From positions 80,940-144,939 of the forward strand of contig CAJCCO010000120.1 of assembly GCA_903960915.1 (NCBI GenBank): a DNA stretch of 64,000 bases, given 5' to 3'. Of the stretch, positions 479 through 14,597 are shown piece after piece (position 1 is the first letter of the stretch; each line of letters opens with the position of its first letter). The translations under genes and the position numbers were made by a program. The notes beneath the pieces were generated by a model. The model had not been told where the DNA came from. It worked only from the letters and a program-made list of their open reading frames with translations, and did no database searches. This stretch comes from an uncultured beta proteobacterium (GTDB lineage Bacteria > Pseudomonadota > Gammaproteobacteria > Burkholderiales > Burkholderiaceae_C).

Positions 479-661
479 GGGGTCGCCAGCGAAAGTGGGG
501 GATGGTTTTGCAATGCCCGTGACCGTCTTTGGTTGACTTATTAAATTTAATGCGATATCATAATTATTTGTTTATCTTTAATAAATTGCAATATTGAAAC
601 TAAATTCTCAAAAAATTGAGCAAACTTGAATATATTACCCAACACTAAATTTATTAAAAAT

Positions 662-1750
662 ATGCGGTCAATAATATTTATCTTTATCTCACTATTTATT
701 TTTAATGCATTTGGGCAAACAAAAGATCAAATTAGAGGCGAAATAGAATCCGGTAATTTTGACGTCGCTAGAAAATTAGCGCAACAACTAATCAAAAAAA
801 ATGATCCTATTGGGTACTTCACTATCGGTTGGTTGGAAGAACGAAAAAAAACTAATGAAGGTTTTATTAAAGCTTTCCAGGCATACCAAAAAGCCGCTAA
901 TTTAGGTGACTTGTACTCAATTTTTCTTGTCGCCAAAATGTATCAGGAAGGCATTGGTACAATCAAAAATATTGACTCAGCTATAATTTGGTACGACAAA
1001 GCAGTAGAAAAAAATGATATCGAATCAACATTCGAACTTGCAAATATTTATCGCAAACTTGATGGACTCCCTGGAGGATTACAAAAATCATACGATTTAT
1101 ATTTAAAAATTGCACAAAATAAATCAATTGAAAATACTGAAATATCCGTTTTATCTTATTTTTTCCTTGGGTTGATGACGCGAGAATCTACGGTAGTCAG
1201 CGAGAAAAATAACTCTGAAAACTTATTTAATTTTGTTTTAAAATCAACTTTAAAAACAGCAAGGGTAGAATGGGCGAAATCAGAAATTAAATCTTATGTT
1301 GCATCAGGTCAATCACGCGCTGGATTAGGAGATGGCAGTTCAGATGATATTTTATGCGCAAGTTATGGATTTGATTTCGGCACAGTCAATTACGCAGATT
1401 GCCGTTTAAAGATTCAGTCAATAAGACAACAAAACATACAAGCGGATCGCATTTATAATGAACAATTGCATCAATATCAATTAGAACAAAAAAGATATCA
1501 AGAGCAAGTTGCGCGATATGAAAAAGAGCGTGAGAGACAAAAGGGTCTCGCTCAAATGCAATTTGGTCTTGCGTTGCTCGGGGGCACATCACCGAATGCC
1601 TCAGAGAATTTTTCGAATGCGGGCAGAGCTATGCTAGGAATGCCACCGCTTGCACCCAGTCAACCTGCAATACAAAATTTTTCGATTACTAACTCACACG
1701 GTAAAATGACAAATTGCACGATTATTACAAATAATATTAATTGCTTTTAA
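662..1750 (+). CDS. Sel1/TPR-like repeat secreted protein
   Basis: Signal-peptide-like start MRSIIFIFISLFIFNAFGQ; Sel1-like helical repeats (AFQAYQKAANLGDLYSIFLVAKMYQEGIGTIKNIDSAIIWYDKAVEKND); AT-rich codon usage unlike the rest of the window. Provided ORF begins at 626. Confidence 0.7.
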   Translation: MRSIIFIFISLFIFNAFGQTKDQIRGEIESGNFDVARKLAQQLIKKNDPIGYFTIGWLEERKKTNEGFIKAFQAYQKAANLGDLYSIFLVAKMYQEGIGTIKNIDSAIIWYDKAVEKNDIESTFELANIYRKLDGLPGGLQKSYDLYLKIAQNKSIENTEISVLSYFFLGLMTRESTVVSEKNNSENLFNFVLKSTLKTARVEWAKSEIKSYVASGQSRAGLGDGSSDDILCASYGFDFGTVNYADCRLKIQSIRQQNIQADRIYNEQLHQYQLEQKRYQEQVARYEKERERQKGLAQMQFGLALLGGTSPNASENFSNAGRAMLGMPPLAPSQPAIQNFSITNSHGKMTNCTIITNNINCF

Positions 1751-2068: not shown

Positions 2069-2479
2069 ATGGGAACTGGATTAACTTCTAAATGCGCCTG
2101 CGGTTACGAGGCCGAATCCAGCGTTGGCAGTTCAAGGCGAATGCACGGCAAGGAGTTCTTCTTTCCACATCATTGCAAGACCTGCTCAAAGGTGGTCTCT
2201 GTTGATTTACTGGCTAAGCCAGTCTGCTGCAGTCATTGCGGCAGCCAAGAGGTGACGTCCTATGCTGCGGCCACAAAGCTGCTTGATAGCAAAGAAACCC
2301 TAAGCCACCTTGACCCCAAGCTACTTAACCGCCTTGGGCACCACGTCGCTGCGCAGGTGGTGGATAGTGCCTTTTGCTACCGACTGGAAAAAACGTTTGT
2401 ACTGACCAACATCGCCAACGACTGTCCCCGCTGCCATGAGCCAACGTTGAAGTTTGCAGCCTCAGTATTTTATGACTAG
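2069..2479 (+). CDS. Hypothetical zinc-ribbon protein
   Basis: 136-aa ORF with several CxC/CxxC pairs (CACG, CKTC, CSHC, CPRC). Confidence 0.45.
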   Translation: MGTGLTSKCACGYEAESSVGSSRRMHGKEFFFPHHCKTCSKVVSVDLLAKPVCCSHCGSQEVTSYAAATKLLDSKETLSHLDPKLLNRLGHHVAAQVVDSAFCYRLEKTFVLTNIANDCPRCHEPTLKFAASVFYD

Positions 2480-3022: not shown

Positions 3023-4483
3023 ATGGCCGCCCGAGCCACATGGACAGAAGAAACAATTCGCGTCGAAGCTGCAAAGTACAAGACAAAAAACGAATTTAGA
3101 CTCGGATCCGGCGCTGCATATATCGCAATGATTAAGCGGTTTCCAGGACTTTCGGTTGGAATTTTTGGGGAGCATCGTGCGGTCACGATCAAATGGACGG
3201 AGAAGGCACTTCGCGATTTAGCCAAGGATTACGAAACCGCTGGAGGTCTCAAGAAGGCGAATCCATCTGCATACACCACATTAAAACGCAAATTTCCCGG
3301 CTTGATTGATCACCTATTTACCACACCGCCAGAAAAACGACCAATCACAGATACCCAGCGGGTCGCGATAGCCCGACGAGTTATTGATCCGACCAAGCGA
3401 AAATGGAATGAGCTTGCCCTACGTGCCGAGGCTGCAAAGTACGAGACAAAGGTCGATTTCGCTAGGGGAATTTTCACAGCTTATTCGGCAATGCTAAGGC
3501 ACCACCCCGGCCTGATCGATGAGCTTTACGAAAACCAAGGACCCGCAAATAAATTCTGGACAGAGGAATTGCTAAATGTTGAGGCATCCCGCTTCCTTAC
3601 TAAAGCTGAATTCCAGAAAAAGAGCCCGAGTGCTTACAACACGGTCTTGAAGCGCTTCCCGCAACTGATTGATGGGTTGTTTGAAAATCAACTGGAATAC
3701 TGGGACGAAGAAAAATTGCGTTCAGAAGCAGCCAAGTATTCAACCAAAGCTGAATTTAAAGTGGGTTGCAGTAGTGCCTACACTACGATGCTTCGGCGAT
3801 ACCCTGATCTCATTGCTCAACTTTTTGAAAACCAACTGGAACACTGGGACGAAGAAAAACTGCGTGAATTGGCAACCAAGTACGCATCAAAGGTGGACTT
3901 CAAGTCTGCCAACCCCTCCGCATATCATGCCATCAGAACTAGATTTTCGTATCTCCTTGAAGAGTTGTTCGTCAATCAGCTTGAAAGCTGGACTGAAAAA
4001 AAACTGCGAGATGAAGTTGCCAAGTACAAAACGAAGGCCGACTTGCGTCGAGGCAATAGCGCAGCGTATGCACGCTTGCTTACTAGATTCTCTGATCGCA
4101 TCGACGAATTCTGCTCGCACATGGAGGCTGGTTTTCGTGCATCGGACAACGATGCAGTCTATGTTTGGAAAGCGGGACAAACAACTTACAACGCAAAGCC
4201 CGTATATAAGATCGGTGTATCAAGCATGCGTACTGGCAATCAGCGCATCTATGAAGTTGCATCTGATGGTGGGTTTGACGCTGAAATCGTAATAGTTCGA
4301 AACGTCAATAATGCGACCAAAATCGAGGCGGCACTACATTCGATTGGCGACAATCCTGGTTTCATAGGCTTTAACGGTTGCACTGAGTTTAGGGCGCTAA
4401 GCGACGACGAGCTTAATACGGTTGTGACACTTATTGAAGCTGCGGCGAGACAATTCAATGATCAAGATGAGCCCCGTGAATAA
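3023..4483 (+). CDS. Protein with seven ~48-aa helical repeats and a C-terminal GIY-YIG/T5orf172-like domain
   Basis: Repeats of W(T/D)EExLRxEAxKYxTKxEFxxGxxSAYxxMLxRFPxLIDxLFENQ; C-terminus VYVWKAGQTTYNAKPVYKIGVSS...NQRIYEVAS...KIEAALHSIGDNPGFIGFNGCTEFRALSDDEL. AAGAGG Shine-Dalgarno six nt before ATG at 3023; longer TTG start at 2996 also possible. Confidence 0.75.
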   Translation: MAARATWTEETIRVEAAKYKTKNEFRLGSGAAYIAMIKRFPGLSVGIFGEHRAVTIKWTEKALRDLAKDYETAGGLKKANPSAYTTLKRKFPGLIDHLFTTPPEKRPITDTQRVAIARRVIDPTKRKWNELALRAEAAKYETKVDFARGIFTAYSAMLRHHPGLIDELYENQGPANKFWTEELLNVEASRFLTKAEFQKKSPSAYNTVLKRFPQLIDGLFENQLEYWDEEKLRSEAAKYSTKAEFKVGCSSAYTTMLRRYPDLIAQLFENQLEHWDEEKLRELATKYASKVDFKSANPSAYHAIRTRFSYLLEELFVNQLESWTEKKLRDEVAKYKTKADLRRGNSAAYARLLTRFSDRIDEFCSHMEAGFRASDNDAVYVWKAGQTTYNAKPVYKIGVSSMRTGNQRIYEVASDGGFDAEIVIVRNVNNATKIEAALHSIGDNPGFIGFNGCTEFRALSDDELNTVVTLIEAAARQFNDQDEPRE

Positions 4484-4921
4484 CCTTCGGTGTGTTGGTT
4501 GATGAAGTGATTATGAAATACTGAATCCATCACGATATGTATATTTCAGAGATGTACTCAACGGATAGAGGGTTACCAAAGTGTGCTGGCGACCTAGACA
4601 ATTTAAGCCAGCCTGAGGATGCCACGCCGCGCCGTGCCCGCATACTGCCCAATGTCCAACGTTAGACAAAGATCCTCTAGTTTTGTATTTATTTGTGCCG
4701 AACAGTGAATACGCCCAATTGGTGTTGACCCGGCGAATACTGGGGGTACGGTGGGGGTCTGCCGAAGAGAGAACCTGGCTCCGCAATCCAGTATGCGGGT
4801 CGAATGCTGCATGCCAATGGTGAACGCCGAATACACTACATCTGGGCAAGAACGGTTCTTGTCCACTTTTTGTCCAACTAAACCATCAGGAAGTTGAGAT
4901 AAAGCGCACCTCTAGTGTGGC

Positions 4922-4938
4922 TAAGTTGTTGATTTATA
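4922..4938 (+). repeat. Direct repeat copy 1 (TAAGTTGTTGATTTATA), candidate att-like site
   Basis: 16/17 identical to 5067-5083, flanking the moaC remnant. Confidence 0.6.
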
Positions 4939-5069
4939 TGGGCTCCCAAGTGGCCCTGCTCACCGTCTACGACATGTGCAAAGCCGTCGACCGCGGAATG
5001 ACCATCAATGACTGCAAGCTGCTGGAGAAGCACGGGGGCAAGAGCGGGAGTTTTGTGGCGGGGCAGTAA
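4938..5069 (+). pseudogene. moaC: C-terminal remnant of moaC (cyclic pyranopterin monophosphate synthase)
   Basis: Translation [40 protein letters not shown] matches the conserved C-terminus of MoaC; the N-terminal ~3/4 is absent upstream. Confidence 0.85.
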
Positions 5070-5088
5070 GTCGTTGATTTATAACGAC
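5067..5088 (+). repeat. Direct repeat copy 2 overlapping the moaC stop codon, with inverted arms GTCGTT-GATTTAT-AACGAC
   Basis: TAAGTCGTTGATTTATA repeats 4922-4938; perfect 6-bp inverted arms around a 7-bp spacer at 5070-5088, like a tyrosine-recombinase core site. Confidence 0.6.
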
Positions 5089-5201
5089 TTCTTTGCAGTC
5101 CGCCCAGCTTTGACAGCCTCATAAGCTTTTTTGGCTAGGTCAAGTGCTGTCGCTTTTGGTGAGCTCTTCGAAGGATTTGTCCCATTTCTGTCCCACCAAG
5201 G

Positions 5202-5698
5202 ATGGATATGGCATCGTTTCGCAATCGCAGTAATCAATGGCAAGCAAGGGTTCGTCGCACAGGCTATCCAGACGAAACAAGGAGCTTTACATCTCGGCAA
5301 GACGCTGAAAAGTGGGCTCGGTCCGTTGAATCGGACATTGACAAGGGTCAGTTCGTTAACGTCAGTGAGGCTAAGCGCAAGACCTTGGGCGATCTGATCA
5401 GTCGCTACTTAGTCGAAGTTAACCCGCTGATGAAAGGGGCATCGGAAGACACTATTCGACTCAAAGCCATCATGCGCAGGCCATTTGCCAAGGTCATGGG
5501 TGCTTACGAACCAGATCGGTGGCTCAGGATCTTCACTGACCATGAGGTTTATGGGGGGAAGAGTCAACGCAGCGCTACGCTCACCTGAATCAAGACACGT
5601 TGATAGACGCCGCCAATGTGGTGCCATTCACGATGGACTTGCCGATGTTGAGTCTAGCCAGCGCTGGGGGCATGTCGCTATCAAATAGTCTTCGGTAA
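5202..5698 (+). pseudogene. Degenerate tyrosine recombinase/integrase (N-terminal part plus frameshifted C-terminal tail)
   Basis: N-terminal MDMASFRNRSNQWQARVRRTGYPDETRSFTSRQDAEKWARSVESDIDKGQFVNVSEAKRKTLGDLISRYLVEVNPLMKG; after ~5560 another frame reads STQRYAHLNQDTLIDAANVV, the catalytic-Tyr tail; catalytic middle absent. Confidence 0.8.
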
Positions 5699-5725
5699 CA
5701 TACGCTTTTAGCGTATATTTCACAT

Positions 5726-6043
5726 ATGAAATTCGAGTTCGTCGAGTCACCGCTATTTTCATCTTATCTGTCGGACTACCTTTCAGATGATGAGTATTCT
5801 GAGCTGCAAGGCTACTTATGTGAACACCCTGACGCGGGCGACATGGTTAAAGGCTCTGGCGGCGTTCGTAAATTACGCTGGAGCCGCTCAGGCACCGGCA
5901 AATCAGGCGGCGTTCGTGTTTGCTATTACGTACGAACGCAGGCCGGACAGGTGTTGATGTTGGTCATCTATGCCAAGAGTGCGAAGGATTCAATTCCCGG
6001 TCACGTTCTCAAGTTAATTAAGGAGGTAATGGAAGATGCCTAA
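5726..6043 (+). CDS. RelE/HigB-like toxin
   Basis: 105 aa, RKLRWSRSGTGKSGGVRVCYYVRTQAGQVLMLVIYAKSAKDSI pattern; overlaps downstream antitoxin by 8 nt. Confidence 0.85.
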   Translation: MKFEFVESPLFSSYLSDYLSDDEYSELQGYLCEHPDAGDMVKGSGGVRKLRWSRSGTGKSGGVRVCYYVRTQAGQVLMLVIYAKSAKDSIPGHVLKLIKEVMEDA

Positions 6044-6455
6044 GATTACAGAAAAAGCGTTGCAGGCGCGTGACGCCAAGCGCGATATTGGCGCGGAACT
6101 GCTTCAATCTGTGCGCGACTTGAAGGCGGGTCGCTGGGGACGCAAGACAACCATTGAGACGATGCCCGGTGGCTCCGTTCGTCGGCGCGTTGAGTTGCCC
6201 AATGGCACTGTCGCAAAAGACGAGATGCTCACCGGCGCGCGTTGGGCGCTGGTGTCCGCGCGTTCGCATTCGGGTCTCTCGCAGGCAGACTTTGCAAAAG
6301 CGCTGGGCGTGTCTAAACGCACAATAGAAAATTGGGAGCAAGGCAAAGCTGAGCCGACCGGCCCCGCCAAGGTGCTGCTCAACTTAGTCGCCAACTACCC
6401 AGATACAGTCCAACGGTTAGCCAAGATGCGGCCGCAAGACAAAGCCGCTGCTTGA
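6036..6455 (+). CDS. NadS/HigA-like HTH antitoxin
   Basis: HTH RSHSGLSQADFAKALGVSKRTIENWEQGKAEPTGPAKVLLNLVANYPD; overlaps toxin gene. Confidence 0.85.
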   Translation: MPKITEKALQARDAKRDIGAELLQSVRDLKAGRWGRKTTIETMPGGSVRRRVELPNGTVAKDEMLTGARWALVSARSHSGLSQADFAKALGVSKRTIENWEQGKAEPTGPAKVLLNLVANYPDTVQRLAKMRPQDKAAA

Positions 6456-6603
6456 TCGGCTAAAGACACCATTCATCCGTAGGCCTTTCCTTCGTGGATA
6501 AGGTCCGGAAAAATTCACGGTAATCCCCCCAATTTCCACTGAAACTAAAAGTGGAACGTTTAGGCAGCCATGCTTCTCTAGCAACATGAAGTCGTTGATG
6601 CGG

Positions 6604-7758
6604 TTATTTGGCGACGTCAACAGCACTCCAGTCGCGGTACAAGGTTGAGACTTGGTCCATGGCGCGTGCGTCGTTGGAAAAAACAACCAGCATCCGGTTG
6701 TTGTTTGGATTCCAGGCAAGTCTCTGACCGGCGTAACCAGCGGCCCAGTAGGATTTGGGAGCTAGCTTGTCTTCTGTCCATATAAAGTAGCCATAGCCCA
6801 AATGAGCTGTTGGCGTTGTTTTTACTTGGATTTGCGTTTTGCTGGCTTCTCGTATGTAGTCTCCCAGACAGCCCTCGGACTTTTGCTTCTGGTTCACCCA
6901 AACGGCAAACCGAATCCAATCCTCTGCAAACATGCGAATGCCGGCATCTGAGTTACCAAAGCCCAACCTGTCCTGGGCAATGATGGCCGGTCGTTTAATG
7001 CCAGCAGGAAGCAAAACAGATTGCTCAACCCACTGTGCGAAATTCATTTGGGTGGACCTGTTCAAGATGACGCCCAACAGCAAAGGGTCCGTGCTCTTGT
7101 ATTCAAACTTTGCGCCGGCTTTGGCCGAGTCGCCAAAAACGGTTTTGGGGTAAGCGGCAACCTTTTCACGCTTCAGCACATCGAGCATGCTCAAGCTGCC
7201 GGCGTTCAACGCATTCTCTTCCTCTGCCTTGTAGATTCGCGAGTCTGGATAGCCGCCCCACACACCCGAGCTCATCGTCAGGAGATCCTTGACCGTTGAA
7301 TTGCCAAGATCCGTGCCATTTAGCTCGGGGACAAATTCTGTGACCAATGTTTTGAGCGTGATTTTTTTATCACAAATGGCGGCACCAACGGCCAGAGACG
7401 TGACCGTTTTGCCCATGCTCATACTGAAGAGTCGGCGGTTTTCTGGAAGTGGTGTTTTGGCGGCTGACCAGACAAGGTCGCTGCCATCCATCAGAGCCAT
7501 GAACTTGGTCGAGGAGCTCTGAAGAATGTCCTGAGCACGCTTGATCAGCACGGCCTCAGGGTTGGTCGGGGCTCTGGCCTTGAGTTCAAGTGGCGTTGGC
7601 GAAACGTCAGTCTTGTGATGCCATTCGCGCCCGTTGCTTAAAAGCCATTGATCGGGTGCACTGGGCTCACCGCTGGGAGTGGTGGGCATCTGGGCCATCA
7701 CATGGCTAGAAAAAGCCAGCGCGGACCACAACCACAACAGTACATGCATCTTTTTCAT
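6604..7758 (-). CDS. Beta-lactamase-family serine hydrolase
   Basis: SMGKTVTSLAVG (SxxK), EYKSTDPLLLG, GYGYFIW motifs; N-terminal signal peptide MKKMHVLLWLWSALAFSSHVMA. Confidence 0.8.
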   Translation of the reverse strand: MKKMHVLLWLWSALAFSSHVMAQMPTTPSGEPSAPDQWLLSNGREWHHKTDVSPTPLELKARAPTNPEAVLIKRAQDILQSSSTKFMALMDGSDLVWSAAKTPLPENRRLFSMSMGKTVTSLAVGAAICDKKITLKTLVTEFVPELNGTDLGNSTVKDLLTMSSGVWGGYPDSRIYKAEEENALNAGSLSMLDVLKREKVAAYPKTVFGDSAKAGAKFEYKSTDPLLLGVILNRSTQMNFAQWVEQSVLLPAGIKRPAIIAQDRLGFGNSDAGIRMFAEDWIRFAVWVNQKQKSEGCLGDYIREASKTQIQVKTTPTAHLGYGYFIWTEDKLAPKSYWAAGYAGQRLAWNPNNNRMLVVFSNDARAMDQVSTLYRDWSAVDVAK

Positions 7759-7855
7759 TCTGTGGCATTCCCCCAAACCTCTAGACATATTTCAGCTTCC
7801 AGTTTGAATCTACTCAAATCCGGGGCGACGTCGGCCCATGAACGACTGCCCCGCC

Positions 7856-8380
7856 TCAGCTCCAAAACCCGCGCGGTGCAAGTGGCGCCCGTTTGGCTCG
7901 AATGGCGTTCATGAAAAGGCAAGCAATGATGGCCAGGCGCAGGACGAAAAATAGAATGGCCGAGGGCGATGTGGGGTCCTTCATGAGGCCGTAGACGCTG
8001 AATAAGTCGACTGCCCAGCCAAAGATCGCCATGGTCAGGATCACCATGGCGACGCGCTCAAAGTACCAGTCACGCACGTAGCTCAGCACATAAACCGCGC
8101 TGGCCAGCAACACATACAGGCCGCGGTACTGAAAATACGTTGCCAGGTCGTGCATGCCCGGTTGCACGTTGAAACTGTCACCCACGGTGGCCGAGAAAAA
8201 TACCAGCCTGATGATCAGGGTCAGCATCGCCACGGTCAAAAAAATATGGCGGTAGCGAAACCCTTTGTCTGCCCCTTGGAGCAATTTTCTCTCTTGGGGT
8301 GTGAGCAACCCGTCCATATCTGCGTCGCTGATAGGGCGCCGGGCTGGCGTGGAAGGCTCTTGCTGAACGGGTTTTTTCAT
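7856..8380 (-). CDS. Hypothetical membrane protein (paralogue of 8398..8964)
   Basis: LLTPQERKLLQGADKGFRYRHIF shared with neighbour's LLTHQERNQRQGVDPGFKWRMNF, plus VRDWYFERVA and CLFMNAIRAKRAP vs YWRDWYFERVA and CLFMNAIHANRAP. Confidence 0.7.
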   Translation of the reverse strand: MKKPVQQEPSTPARRPISDADMDGLLTPQERKLLQGADKGFRYRHIFLTVAMLTLIIRLVFFSATVGDSFNVQPGMHDLATYFQYRGLYVLLASAVYVLSYVRDWYFERVAMVILTMAIFGWAVDLFSVYGLMKDPTSPSAILFFVLRLAIIACLFMNAIRAKRAPLAPRGFWS

Positions 8381-8397
8381 ACCAGCGACTTGGAATA

Positions 8398-8964
8398 TTA
8401 ATTAAGCCAGCGCCAAAAAGCACGGGGCGCAGGCGGGGCCCGGTTGGCATGAATGGCGTTCATGAACAGGCAGTAAATAATCAGCAACCGCAAGAGCAAA
8501 AAAACCACCACCAGCGGGGGTATTGGGCCCAGTGCAAAGCCCAACACATTGAAAAAATCCATGAACAAGCTCGAAAGGGCCAGTGCAAAGGTGATCAGCG
8601 CGACCCGCTCAAAGTACCAGTCGCGCCAATAGCTAAAGTAGTAAACGACTAAAACGCTCAGTACCAAATAACCACGAAAGGGCAGCACAGGCGCGAGCTT
8701 GTTGGCCCCGTTTTCAAATTGGAGTTTGCTGTAGATGAAGCCCGGGAAAATCAGCATCCAAACGATGAACACCAACAAGGCGACAAGCATGAAGTTCATG
8801 CGCCATTTGAAGCCGGGGTCTACCCCCTGGCGTTGGTTTCTCTCTTGGTGGGTGAGCAGCATCTCCAACTCTTGCTCGCTGATCAGAGGCCCCGCGCCAG
8901 CTTTTTCGCTCAAGTGAGCCGGCAACTGGGTAGGGGTGTGCTGTGGTGCAGGGGTTCGCATCAA
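8398..8964 (-). CDS. Hypothetical membrane protein (paralogue of 7856..8380)
   Basis: Several hydrophobic segments; start overlaps the end of the MinD-like gene by 4 nt. Confidence 0.7.
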   Translation of the reverse strand: MMRTPAPQHTPTQLPAHLSEKAGAGPLISEQELEMLLTHQERNQRQGVDPGFKWRMNFMLVALLVFIVWMLIFPGFIYSKLQFENGANKLAPVLPFRGYLVLSVLVVYYFSYWRDWYFERVALITFALALSSLFMDFFNVLGFALGPIPPLVVVFLLLRLLIIYCLFMNAIHANRAPPAPRAFWRWLN

Positions 8965-9785
8965 TGCAATAAAGTGGCACGCACTGGACGCATTTGTCGG
9001 TCATTGAAAAACTGCACGTTGCCCGACATCTCTTGCAATGGCGTCAATTCGGTCACCGCATGCGCCAGCAGGCCAAAGTCTTTTGCGGCCCGGCTGGTGC
9101 GGGCGTAGGTCATCAAGGGCTCCAAGTGCTTGTGGGCCTCTTCCACCCGGGGGTCATGCTCAATGGTGCCGACATAGTGAACAGTGCGGGGTAAAAACTG
9201 GGCACACACCCGGTTTATTTTGTGGAACAGCAGCTGCCCGTCCAACTGGCTTTTCATCGCATTGGGTACGAGGTAGATTTCGTCAAGCCCGTAGTCCTCT
9301 GTCAATACCTTGATGGTGCCGTAGGCGTCGGCAATGGATGAGGGGTCGTTGCGCGTAACGATCAGGCGCCGATGGCTGGCCGCCATGAAGCTCAGCACCG
9401 CAGGCGAAATGCCCGCAGCCATGTCGACGATCAAGTAGTCAATCGTTTCATCCAGGTCGCTGAAGGCCTGCACAATTTTCAAGGCGTCTACCGCGGTCAA
9501 GGCGGCCAATTGCTGGTTGCCTGAAGCCCCGGGAATCAGGCGCAAGCCTTGTGGCGTGGTGATCGCAATCTCGGCCAGCGTTTTTTCGCCGCGTAAAAAA
9601 TGGCTTAGGTTGAACGGGCAATGGCAGCCCAACAAGATAGGGGCGTTGGCCAGGCCGAGGTCGGCATCAAACAACATCACGCGGTAGCCGCTTTCTTGCA
9701 AGGCCAGGGCCAAATTGACTGCCACCGTGGTCTTGCCAGCACCGCCTTTACCGCTGGCGATACCAATAACTTCAGTGTGTTGCAT
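8961..9785 (-). CDS. MinD/ParA-family (FlhG-like) ATPase
   Basis: Deviant Walker A IASGKGGAGKTTVAVNLALAL; FDADLGLANAPILLG; LIVDMAAGI. Confidence 0.9.
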   Translation of the reverse strand: MQHTEVIGIASGKGGAGKTTVAVNLALALQESGYRVMLFDADLGLANAPILLGCHCPFNLSHFLRGEKTLAEIAITTPQGLRLIPGASGNQQLAALTAVDALKIVQAFSDLDETIDYLIVDMAAGISPAVLSFMAASHRRLIVTRNDPSSIADAYGTIKVLTEDYGLDEIYLVPNAMKSQLDGQLLFHKINRVCAQFLPRTVHYVGTIEHDPRVEEAHKHLEPLMTYARTSRAAKDFGLLAHAVTELTPLQEMSGNVQFFNDRQMRPVRATLLH

Positions 9786-9941
9786 ACACGATTTTTCCAA
9801 CAACTTTAGATATAAAGAATTTTAACTTCTGCGGATTTTATACAAGTAATGTCTACATTGCTCAACGCATTTTTATTAAAGAATCATAAATAGGGGCGGC
9901 AGAATTTTTATAACAATACGCACGCATTATTTTCAATATTT

Positions 9942-11471
9942 TTACTTGGTAAATTTTTGAAAGCTATCTGGATAAGACGCCTGATACCGCAGCAGGTAAT
10001 AGGCGGATTCATCTTGACGACCCAGCAAGCGCTGGCTGGCAATCAGCTTTTCAAGCACCGAGGCTTCGGGCGAAAAATGCAATAACTCCAGGCCGCGCGC
10101 ACGCACGGACGCGGCATTGTCTGGGGTCAAGGTCACCATGGCGAAGTCGGCAAACTTGAGTTGGTCCTGAAAGAACACCAGGCCTTGCACCGCCTCCAGT
10201 GGTTTGTCACGAAAAGCCGGCAAGCGCACCGCGGGCTGCAGGTAAATCTGGCTCACGCGCACGTAATCCCAGCCCACCCAGGTGGTCATGGCCAGCAAGC
10301 ACCCCGCCAACAGACCCCGCGCAGCAGGTGCCAGGGGCTGGATGACGCCGCCAAACAAAGGCCGAGCACGAAAAGGTTGTACACGGGTTTGAACCGCCCC
10401 GGGGGTAAGGGCTAACAGCAACACACTCAAGACCACCGCCAGTTGAAACGGGCCGTACCACAGCGGGTACTCCAGCAGGCTGTGCAGGCCAATCACTGCC
10501 AGCACCGACCAAGCCATTTGTCGCGTGGCATTGGCTTCACGCCAGGGTTGGCCACGCCACACCAGCATCAGCACCAGCGCGCAAATCAGCAAGGCCAGCG
10601 GCAAGCCCAGTTCCACCGCCAGGTGCAAGGGCAGGTTGTGGGCGTTGTCCAGCAGGTCATTGAATCGCGCACCGGGGTAGACCGTGATGAAGTGGGCAAA
10701 GTCCAGCTCGCCCCAGCCCCAGCCAAGCCAGGGTTTTTGCGCAATGAGGTGCAGCACATTGCCCCACAGCACCACGCGGCTGTAAGAGGATTCGGCGGGC
10801 TCTTGAAAGCGGGACAAAATGCCCCGCTCCTGCCCCAGCAGCAGCGGCAAAACCAGCGCAGCCACCACATAGGCCAACGCAGCCACTAGCAGCACGCGGC
10901 GCACTGGCGCACTGCGCCAACCTCCCCACCACAGGTACAGCACCAGCAAGAACAACAACTGCAGCAAGCCCGCACGCGAGGCACTCACAGCCAAACCCGT
11001 GCCCAGCAGCACAGCCAAGGCCACCGGTACCCATGGGGTACGCTGTAAAAAAACGGCAAAACGAGAAAAGGGGCTGCCCGAAGGCCCCGTGCTTTGCCAC
11101 CACAGCAGGGCCGCCAAACCGATGCTGCTCAAGGTGGCAAACTGGTTACGCTGACGCAAATTGGCAAAGGCCTCGCCCGGCTGCGCGTAGTTGACCCACG
11201 GCGCCAGCGCCGCGCTGAAGCCGAAATACTGCAACAAGCCCAGCACGCCACTGAGCGCCGCGGCTATCAACCAGGCGCGGGCCGAGACGGTGGCCAAATC
11301 CAGCGGGTCGCGCTGCCAGGCAAATACCGCCAACACCAAGGCTGCGCACGCTGCGGTCAACAGACTTTGTGCGGCCGAAGACGTTGGGCCAAATGTCAGG
11401 GGATTGAGCCAGGGCAGGGCCAGGGCAAGCACCACCCAGGTGGTTTTTAAGCGGGGCAGAAAAAATTGCAT
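9942..11471 (-). CDS. Wzy/PglL-like O-antigen ligase or pilin O-glycosyltransferase
   Basis: Polytopic protein with RNQFATLSSIGLAALLWW, ENVLHLIAQKPWLGWGWGEL-type segment and NAHNLPLHLAVELGLP; next to a type IV pilin gene. Provided ORF extends to 11558. Confidence 0.8.
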   Translation of the reverse strand: MQFFLPRLKTTWVVLALALPWLNPLTFGPTSSAAQSLLTAACAALVLAVFAWQRDPLDLATVSARAWLIAAALSGVLGLLQYFGFSAALAPWVNYAQPGEAFANLRQRNQFATLSSIGLAALLWWQSTGPSGSPFSRFAVFLQRTPWVPVALAVLLGTGLAVSASRAGLLQLLFLLVLYLWWGGWRSAPVRRVLLVAALAYVVAALVLPLLLGQERGILSRFQEPAESSYSRVVLWGNVLHLIAQKPWLGWGWGELDFAHFITVYPGARFNDLLDNAHNLPLHLAVELGLPLALLICALVLMLVWRGQPWREANATRQMAWSVLAVIGLHSLLEYPLWYGPFQLAVVLSVLLLALTPGAVQTRVQPFRARPLFGGVIQPLAPAARGLLAGCLLAMTTWVGWDYVRVSQIYLQPAVRLPAFRDKPLEAVQGLVFFQDQLKFADFAMVTLTPDNAASVRARGLELLHFSPEASVLEKLIASQRLLGRQDESAYYLLRYQASYPDSFQKFTK

Positions 11472-11547
11472 GGGCGGTATTTGACCATGCGCCGTGGCTT
11501 GGCCAAAGGGTGGGTTGAAGGTGCGCTGGAGAGGTGACAGCGCCAAT

Positions 11548-11574
11548 AAAAAAAGCACCCGGAGGGGTGCTTTT
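11548..11574 (-). terminator. Rho-independent terminator of the pilin gene
   Basis: On minus strand: AAAAGCACCC-CTCC-GGGTGCTTTTTTT. Confidence 0.8.
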
Positions 11575-11614
11575 GCATAACTATCTCTCAGCAGGTGTTA
11601 TGGCCTCGAGGTCA

Positions 11615-12046
11615 TTATTTGCAGTATTTATCAACGCACGTACCACTAACTTTCCAGCTAATTTTTCCGTCGGCATAGATTGGCGTCAATGTATAGGTTT
11701 CACCATTCAAACCACTGGCCGCCGCTGCCGAAGTGCCCACTGCGGTCGCAGTAATGATGCCATTTGTAGTCGTTAATGTAGATAAATAACCGGTAGCAGC
11801 GGAGTTTGCAGGTACGCCATTGGTAGTCGCAGTGCAATTGTCTACAGCCCCCTGGTCCTGAGCGCACAGCTCTACGGCAACCTTCACCACGGAGGTGGCC
11901 AAAATCACTTCAGAGAACTTGGCTTTGGAGGCATAGGTTTGGTAGGCTGGCAAAGCCACCGTCGCCAAAATGCCCACGATGGCAATCACAATCATCAGCT
12001 CAATCAGGGTAAAACCCTTTTGCATAGTTTTCGCATAATTCTTCAT
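11615..12046 (-). CDS. pilA: Type IV pilin (PilA-like)
   Basis: Prepilin motif [30 protein letters not shown]-terminal cysteine pair CVDKYC. Confidence 0.9.
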
Positions 12047-12185
12047 CGTTTACTCCCTTGGATTAAAGAAACCAAAGACTCGGCACACCCCTCATCGGTG
12101 CTCGTGCCAAGCCTCCCTAAACAGCTCCGACCTTACCGTGGCTGGACCCTCCGCGCAACGTATAAATATTTTGCTAACGCTACGC

Positions 12186-14597
12186 TTATTGAATGCACAC
12201 CAGACGCACCATTTTCAGATCGGTCAGGCCCTGAAGCACCTTGTCCATGCCGTCCATTTTCAAGGTGTGCATGCCACGGTCCAGCGCGGTGGCCAGGAGG
12301 TCTGCCACACGGGCGTGGGTATGAATTTGTCGTTTGATCTCGTCGTCGGCAATCAACAGTTCATGCAGCGCCAAGCGGCCTTTGTAGCCTGAGTGGTTGC
12401 AGCGCGCGCACCCCTTTGCGCGGTAGAGCTGCAGCACGCGCGCCGGCTCATCGGGCTGGTGGGGGTCTGGTTGGCCGTACTGCGCGGTCCAGCTTTGCAG
12501 CAGTCGTTCAGACTCGCCTGGGGCATCCAGCTGCCAGGGCGCGCTGTGGCGCAGATCGTCGGCGTACTCGGCCACAAAGCGCTGCAACTCTGCCGCATCG
12601 GGGGTGTAGGCTTCTTTGCAAATGCAGAGTTTTTTGGTCAGGCGCTGGGCCAGAACGCCCACCAGCGCATCGGCAAAATTGAAGGGGTCCATGCCCATGT
12701 CAAGCAAGCGGGTGATGGACTCTGCGGCAGAGTTGGTGTGCAGGGTTGAAAAAACCAGATGGCCAGTGAGCGAGGCCTCGATGCCCATGGCCACGGTTTC
12801 CCGGTCGCGCGATTCCCCCACCATGATGATGTCGGGGTCGGCGCGCAAGAAGGCGCGCATGACCAGCGCAAAGTCAATGCCGGCTTTGCGGTTGATTTGC
12901 ACTTGGCGCAAGCCTTTTTGCGTGATCTCCACGGGGTCTTCTACCGTCCAGATTTTGGTGTCCGGGTTGTTGAGGTGTTTCAAAATGGCGTGCAGCGTGG
13001 TGGTCTTGCCTGAGCCGGTGGGGCCGCACACATAAAACAGGCCGTAGGGTTGGGTGACGGTCTGCACAAGCCGTGCCTGATTCAGCGGGTTCAGACCGAT
13101 TTGGTCCAGCGGCAGGGATTCGCCAGCAACCAGGAGACGCATCACCACATCTTCCAGCCCGCCGGCCGTGGGAATGGTGGCCACGCGTAATTCAATGTCG
13201 AGTGGGCCGTATTTTTTGAACCTGATCTTGCCGTCTTGCGGCTTTCGGCGCTCGGAGATGTCCAGGTCGCACATGATTTTCAGGCGTGTGACCAACGGTT
13301 GGCGAAATGGCGCAGGCACTTCGGCATACGCCACCAGAGTGCCGTCAATGCGAAAGCGAATACCGGTTTTAGACCTGCCGGGCATCGGCTCAATGTGAAT
13401 GTCGGAGGCGCCCTGCTCGTAGGCGTCCACAATGATTTTGTTGACCAGGCGCACCAGCTCATTGGAGGAAGCAGCGGACTCAATGAGGTCCTGGCTTTCT
13501 TCCAACACCTGCGCGTCCATGGTGGAGAGCAGGGTGTCCACCGTGCCAGCTTGCTGATCTGGGCTGAAAAATTGCGCCAGCGTTTGCTTGAACTCGGCGT
13601 GCGTGGTCACTCGGTACACCGTGTGCTGGTGGGCGGGGTAAATTTGCATCACCGCACGGGACTCGCGCACGGCGACCGGGTCCAGACACATGACCACCAG
13701 ACCCTCTGCCGAGTGCGCCAGCGGCAGCCAGCCCTGCTGCGCCATGAATTCGCGTTTGGCCAATGCGTGCAAGTCGTCTGAGCGCAGGCGCCCCGCCTTG
13801 AACGGCTCGTACGGCACGCCGAAGAAACTGGCCAGGCACAGGCCAATTTGCACCAGCTGCAGTTGAAAGTTTTCTACCAGCAAGTCTTGCATGGGGCGCC
13901 GCTCGCGGCTGGCTGCTTCATGGCACTGGGCCAACTCGGCCGATGTCAGACAGCCGTGCTGCACCAGGCTGGCGTATTTGTTGGCCTTGGGCGCAGCCTG
14001 CTCGGCAGATGTCGGCAGGGCCAAGGGCTGCACCGGGGCCGTGACCAGGTTACACAAGGCCTGGCTCAAGGGCACCAGCGCGCTTGCGGCCTGGTCGCTA
14101 AAAGGCTGTCCGTCTTTTTGATTGATGAGTTGCAACACCCCATGCCATTGCCCACCCTGGCGCAAGGGGGTCACCAGCATCTGTCGGGTGCGGTAGCCCG
14201 AGCGCATGTCCACCGCGCCTAGAAAGCGCAGGTCCGGGTGAATTTTTTTCAAGGCCCGGGTGTCGTACACATTGGCCAGGTTAAGCGTTTGCTGCGTCTG
14301 GGCCACGTAACCGGCCAGGCTTTGGGGGGTGACGGGCAAGCGAATGGGGCCGTGGCCGTCCAGCCCGGTCTTGATTCTGGACACCAGGGATTTGCGGTCT
14401 GCACTCGGCAGGTACAAGCTCAGGCGGTCTGCACCGAACACCTCGCAAATAGACTGGCAATGCGCGGGTGTGAGTTGCTCCAGACGGGTGCAGGCCTGGA
14501 GCTGTGCCAGCAGCAGTTGCAGTGCTGGCGAGTCGACACGGTCGGGGGTTGTGCTGGACATGGCCGTGTCACTGTTTTTTGAGGTCTGCGGCATCAT
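12186..14597 (-). CDS. GspE/PilB-family secretion/pilus assembly ATPase with N-terminal GAF-like domain
   Basis: Walker A GPTGSGKTTTLHAIL, EDPVEITQKGLRQVQINRKAGIDFALVMRAFLRADPDIIMVGE, Zn motif CARCNHSGYKGR; N-terminal GAF-like segment LQACTRLEQLTPAHCQSICEVFGADRLSLYL...GVLQLINQKDGQPFSDQ. Confidence 0.9.
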   Translation of the reverse strand: MMPQTSKNSDTAMSSTTPDRVDSPALQLLLAQLQACTRLEQLTPAHCQSICEVFGADRLSLYLPSADRKSLVSRIKTGLDGHGPIRLPVTPQSLAGYVAQTQQTLNLANVYDTRALKKIHPDLRFLGAVDMRSGYRTRQMLVTPLRQGGQWHGVLQLINQKDGQPFSDQAASALVPLSQALCNLVTAPVQPLALPTSAEQAAPKANKYASLVQHGCLTSAELAQCHEAASRERRPMQDLLVENFQLQLVQIGLCLASFFGVPYEPFKAGRLRSDDLHALAKREFMAQQGWLPLAHSAEGLVVMCLDPVAVRESRAVMQIYPAHQHTVYRVTTHAEFKQTLAQFFSPDQQAGTVDTLLSTMDAQVLEESQDLIESAASSNELVRLVNKIIVDAYEQGASDIHIEPMPGRSKTGIRFRIDGTLVAYAEVPAPFRQPLVTRLKIMCDLDISERRKPQDGKIRFKKYGPLDIELRVATIPTAGGLEDVVMRLLVAGESLPLDQIGLNPLNQARLVQTVTQPYGLFYVCGPTGSGKTTTLHAILKHLNNPDTKIWTVEDPVEITQKGLRQVQINRKAGIDFALVMRAFLRADPDIIMVGESRDRETVAMGIEASLTGHLVFSTLHTNSAAESITRLLDMGMDPFNFADALVGVLAQRLTKKLCICKEAYTPDAAELQRFVAEYADDLRHSAPWQLDAPGESERLLQSWTAQYGQPDPHQPDEPARVLQLYRAKGCARCNHSGYKGRLALHELLIADDEIKRQIHTHARVADLLATALDRGMHTLKMDGMDKVLQGLTDLKMVRLVCIQ

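Follow-up and report, generated by a model that had tools for sequence, protein, structure and literature searches.

The stretch of DNA analysed here, referred to as the window, comprises 64,000 nucleotides (positions 80,940–144,939) of contig CAJCCO010000120.1 in assembly GCA_903960915.1, from an uncultured beta proteobacterium of the Burkholderiaceae_C. Near its start, an intact open reading frame on the plus strand (3023–4483), with AGAGG just 5' of the ATG, encodes a protein of 486 residues in which an array of repeats is followed by a C-terminal nuclease-type domain. The gene is present as a single copy in its own genome, and in one of 301 sampled genomes of the host family. An HMM of the repeat unit, built and iterated from the window protein and its relatives, identifies seven units of 43–45 residues, with i-Evalues from 5e-12 to 4e-17, starting at residues 7, 58, 128, 179, 227, 275, and 323 (nucleotides 3041–3175, 3194–3328, 3404–3538, 3557–3691, 3701–3835, 3845–3979, and 3989–4123, all on the plus strand). 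The preliminary description had likewise counted seven repeats, but the spacing of about 48 residues that it gave applies to units 4–7 only; the successive spacings are 51, 70, 51, 48, 48, and 48 residues, with a linker of 25 residues in front of unit 3. Unit 7 ends with the (D)E.CSHM motif of the family.

The gene is the last one of an integrative, satellite-like element of about 9.8 kb inserted in the 3' end of moaC. The sequence preceding the window contains, in order, an intact moaC, a tyrosine integrase, an unassigned open reading frame, a RepB-like reading frame (judged by eye), and a gene for an AAA_25/PriCT_2 protein; the integrase and replication genes of the element are thus located outside the window, and are full length. 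The cargo within the window consists of a Sel1/TPR protein (626–1750, plus strand) with a signal-peptide-like start, a zinc-ribbon-like reading frame (2069–2479, plus strand; phrog_8538), and the nuclease gene, after which a duplicate of the moaC 3' end (4947–5096, plus strand) marks the attR side, with 89% identity over 150 bp to the intact moaC. A 17-bp repeat on the plus strand, TAAGTTGTTGATTTATA at 4922–4938 and TAAGTCGTTGATTTATA at 5067–5083, was found twice where 0.01 copies are expected, and is a candidate att core at the end of the element. The GC content of the element is 48%, compared with 61% in the window downstream of position 7000, and the Sel1/TPR gene, at about 31%, is far from the rest of the region. 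Beyond the element lies a truncated tyrosine integrase (5202–5588, plus strand), which confirms the integrase debris mentioned in the preliminary description. Since the second moaC end precedes this remnant, the most plausible reading is that an older element at the same site begins here.

No report of an integrase–primase element at moaC was found in a search of the literature. In a Polynucleobacter (L103), a relative of the nuclease gene follows genes for an integrase and a D5-type primase/helicase, in the same layout as in the window element. A related element in another genome (G217) has an integrase 38%, a RepB-like protein 62%, and an AAA_25 protein 52% identical to those of the window element, but differs in its cargo, which includes a gene for a subtilase. 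In G671, chromosomal genes come directly after the moaC end, and one of them is of the O-antigen-ligase-like type (judged by eye) found at 9942–11558 in the window. An apparent second moaC 3' end in this genome is a moaC gene cut by the end of the contig, and not a duplication.

The C-terminal part of the protein (residues 375–486; 4145–4480, plus strand) scores just below the cut-offs of the Pfam models T5orf172 (E=0.0026; 18.6 bits against a cut-off of 20) and MUG113 (E=0.0007; 20.5 bits against 22.3), and the phage relative BcepSauron exceeds the MUG113 cut-off (24.1 compared with 22.3 bits). The corresponding part of the close relative L103 matches a PHROG annotated as endonuclease (E=4e-7), and a profile of the window subfamily reaches ordinary T5orf172-like domains in distant bacteria (E=3e-5), where they are C-terminal in long coiled-coil proteins. 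The residues Y380, W382, K396, G398, R408, E435, G442, G452, F456, and R457 are invariant in 14 of 14 relatives, the window protein included. The AlphaFold model of residues 223–486, based on 112 aligned rows, has a mean pLDDT of 90.9, with values above 90 in the C-terminal fold, and a predicted β–β–α–β–α topology (strands 377–389 and 392–401, helix 405–416, strand 420–427, and helix 431–439). R408 (codon 4244–4246) is placed on the first of the two predicted helices, and E435 (codon 4325–4327) on the later one. Foldseek searches against viral models return many named T5orf172 proteins with a probability of 1.00, and target TM values of 0.63–0.66 for small single-domain T5orf172 targets; among solved structures in the PDB, no relative was found by sequence or by fold. 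Sister proteins have canonical GIY-YIG domains within arrays of this repeat, but a profile comparison of the window domain with these was not significant, and homology by this route was rejected; the superfamily placement therefore rests on T5orf172. Taken together, the motif, the predicted topology, and the Foldseek matches support a nuclease-type domain of the T5orf172/MUG113 branch of the GIY-YIG superfamily, in agreement with both the T5orf172-like end and the conserved arginine and glutamate noted previously.

As for the repeat, its consensus is WT.E.C..EA.KY.TR.EF....S..AY..A...GWLDEICSHM, for which neither Pfam nor NCBIfam holds a model. A match of the repeats to Pfam AAA_8 (E=1e-4) is below cut-off and clashes with the predicted fold, and was judged to be due to chance. 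PHROG 20046, of unknown function, spans the repeat array (E=8e-44) and leaves the nuclease domain outside. The repeat was found in at least 160 viral candidate loci, of which 80 were kept, and in 27 loci of GTDB genomes, such that most relatives reside in phages and not in bacteria; the preliminary description had likewise placed similar repeats in phage and bacterial proteins. The number of units ranges from 1 to 12 across 116 distinct proteins, not all of which are full length, and some proteins (e.g., those of L010 and L107) consist of repeats only.

A single unit, modeled alone (unit 5 of the window protein), is predicted by AlphaFold to form four short helices with a pLDDT of 88. Neither sequence nor Foldseek comparison relates the repeat to any solved structure, and no known DNA-binding fold was matched; structure prediction thus bears out the C-terminal half of the preliminary description, but not a recognised DNA-binding fold in the repeats. 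Since Foldseek finds no solved relative, the predicted fold does not amount to proof of DNA binding. The most variable positions of the unit (17, 20, 24, 28, and 31) are located on helices 2–3, as expected of a recognition face, but equally of any exposed surface.

The preliminary description regarded the array as recently duplicated, on account of an exact 144-bp period between adjacent units (3681 compared with 3825). The register exists, but it corresponds to one patch of about 41 bp with three mismatches. Whole units of the window array are 41–58% identical at the DNA level (55% for units 5 and 6), and only about half of the residues identical between units use the same codon; recent duplication of this array is not supported, and was rejected. 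Judged from these comparisons, the window array is old, and has been homogenised locally, in one patch. Changes in repeat number do occur in the family: two viral contigs (L004 and L005, near 4893–6764) that are 99.8% identical upstream differ by exactly one unit (9 compared with 10), representing a real and clean gain or loss of a single repeat.

Fusions join the repeat to DNA-acting enzymes of five kinds. Canonical GIY-YIG domains are found within the array in PVA23, L005, L036, and others, and T5orf172/MUG113-like domains accompany the repeats in the window protein, BcepSauron, L103, and L104. The remaining kinds are Vsr/PD-(D/E)XK-like domains (REase_MTES_1575/DUF559; L013, L065, and L122), Mom/GNAT domains (L018, L024, L030, and L065), and SF2 helicases (L014 and L060). 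In addition, an endonuclease-VII-type zinc module precedes two repeat units in L135 and L136. All recognised fusion partners act on DNA. Because an uncatalogued module is joined to so many phage DNA enzymes, the repeat looks like a reusable part by which phages aim enzymes at DNA. The absence of a relative among solved structures means that we can only infer DNA binding by the repeats, and we do so from these fusions.

The SF2 helicases (L014:564–2792 and L060:3519–5603) carry four to five C-terminal repeat units, and in other phages a separate repeat gene is located directly upstream of a helicase gene. Arrays joined to Mom-like/GNAT domains occur in L018, L030, L034, and L065, three of which also have a Vsr-like nuclease domain; these proteins are possibly phage DNA-modification enzymes aimed by the repeats.

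In phages, the distribution of the repeat-nuclease gene resembles that of free-standing homing endonuclease genes. Vibrio phage 1.210 has the gene upstream of a helicase gene, and the equivalent slot in Vibrio phage 1.076, where the flanks are 75% and 72% identical, is occupied by an endonuclease-VII-like protein of 257 residues (phrog_1035, E=4e-18). In L132, the gene is inserted between the terminase and the prohead/major head genes, and in L155, with a terminase 67% identical to that of L132, the same slot contains about 215 bp and no such gene. Further members adjoin genes for a helicase, an exonuclease, or a tRNA nucleotidyltransferase. The occupied, empty, and differently occupied slots all concern phage relatives, and the slot of the window copy is inside the integrative element. 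By their genomic placement, then, the phage relatives behave like free-standing homing endonuclease genes.

Phage homing endonucleases that combine T5orf172 with repeated CapR/DUF723/DUF4379 zinc-finger domains are known, and have been described as free-standing homing genes (PMC10448857). Like the window protein, they have the T5orf172 domain at one end and repeats arranged as beads on a string at the other, and further likenesses are the change of repeat number by recombination and the location between conserved phage genes. The window repeat differs in being a family of its own, all-helical, 43–45 residues long, and without a Pfam model, and in that its gene resides on a bacterial integrative element. 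No match was found between the window protein and the DUF723 or DUF4379 models, and units 1–6 are devoid of a Cys/His ligand set; because the internal units have no such cysteine and histidine residues, the window repeat is not a zinc finger. In Odn of phage ICP1, which combines T5orf172 with RepA_N and has been shown experimentally to be a site-directed nuclease (PMC8263062), a C-terminal T5orf172 nuclease domain is similarly preceded by an N-terminal DNA-targeting region, a role that the repeats would have in the window protein, and the setting is also one of phage–satellite conflict. Here, repeats take the place of RepA_N, to which the window protein has no match, and it is the satellite-like element that carries the nuclease. 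I-TevI and other GIY-YIG homing endonucleases share the superfamily layout with a modular, in our case putative, DNA-binding part. TALE proteins, on the other hand, have units of 33–35 residues with one base-specifying residue pair each, whereas the window units are 43–45 residues long, spaced by 48–70 residues, and display no readable code; the sequence-reading role suggested in the preliminary description is not supported by the analysis.

Based on the architecture, motif, predicted fold, fusions, slot exchange, and element context, we consider it likely that the window protein is a DNA endonuclease of the T5orf172 branch that is tethered to DNA by its array, and that derives from a homing-type lineage of phages and is now cargo of the moaC element. 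The seven four-helix modules would hold the enzyme on DNA, and the C-terminal domain would nick or cut beside the bound site by means of R408 and a metal-binding E435. Within the element of about 9.8 kb, such an enzyme would most likely cut competing phages or elements in which its target is present, or persist as a homing gene of the element; it may be a homing passenger, or else a weapon directed at other mobile DNA that competes with the element.

A possible, but in our view doubtful, alternative is that the protein is primarily a defence nuclease of the integrative element against phages and other elements, and not the product of a homing gene, with an array that reads a site in rival mobile DNA by a logic similar to that of Odn, a T5orf172 nuclease that cuts satellite origins (PMC8263062). 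The position of the gene in a cargo zone, which in the related G217 element holds different genes, a subtilase gene among them, agrees with such a role. Of the two kinds of neighbours considered in the preliminary description, mobile DNA is evident (the integrative element, and phages). As for defence, one relative (L187 of G619, 5469–14229) is found beside a transposase-like reading frame, a MazEF-like pair, and type I restriction-modification-like reading frames, all recognised by eye, but the PADLOC models do not match the window protein. The predominance of phage-borne relatives and the lack of a conserved partner or immunity gene also argue against dedicated defence.

Alternatively, the repeats might not read DNA but bind protein or RNA, and serve as a scaffold by which the nuclease, helicase, or modification domain is brought to a phage complex. 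The lack of a match to known DNA-binding folds, the low charge of the window units (net −2 to +4 per unit, i.e., not basic), and the repeat-only proteins are consistent with a scaffold. This is nevertheless improbable considering that the recognised partners all act on DNA, that the array replaces the DNA-binding part in proteins with the layout of homing endonucleases (PMC10448857), and that the variable positions cluster on helices 2–3. Decaying, pseudogene-like cargo devoid of present function is very unlikely: the adjoining integrase copy is truncated and the gene is rare in the family, but the reading frame, the ribosome-binding-like site, and the motif residues are all intact, as are the integrase and replication genes of the element itself.

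For the preferred reading, a DNA-tethered endonuclease of phage homing-type origin, the T5orf172 enzymes with zinc-finger arrays are the known precedent, and the all-helical, non-zinc repeat appears to be new; no such unit common to five enzyme classes was found in the searched libraries or literature. Common in phages and without a Pfam model, the family occurs joined to nucleases, DNA-modifying enzymes, and a helicase, and site-specific DNA binding by the repeat would explain how the attached enzymes are aimed. A non-zinc array would then be added to the zinc-finger ones already known from phage homing endonucleases, and provide a compact natural scaffold with a copy number that shifts by single units. 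To the bolder proposal that the repeat is a new modular DNA-recognition unit across five phage enzyme classes, with a long, evolvable target that would be determined by the number of copies and by the variable residues on helices 2–3, such that arrays of 3–12 units form a natural programmable DNA-binding platform, we give little credence. As cargo of a bacterial integrative element, the window nuclease links phage homing genes to phage–satellite conflict.

Other traces of mobile DNA are present nearby. A RelE-like toxin gene (PF06296, E=9e-5) adjoins a gene for an XRE-type HTH antitoxin (HTH_3, E=5e-9) at 5726–6455 on the plus strand, beside the second integrase remnant, and the two probably form a HigBA-like pair. 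The moaC 3' end also has an inverted match of 33 bp (88%) at 6568–6600 on the minus strand, which may have been left by the far end of the older element. A second copy of the AAA_25 gene of the moaC element, located elsewhere in this genome (G000:C145:4261–5343), is broken by two in-frame TGA codons.
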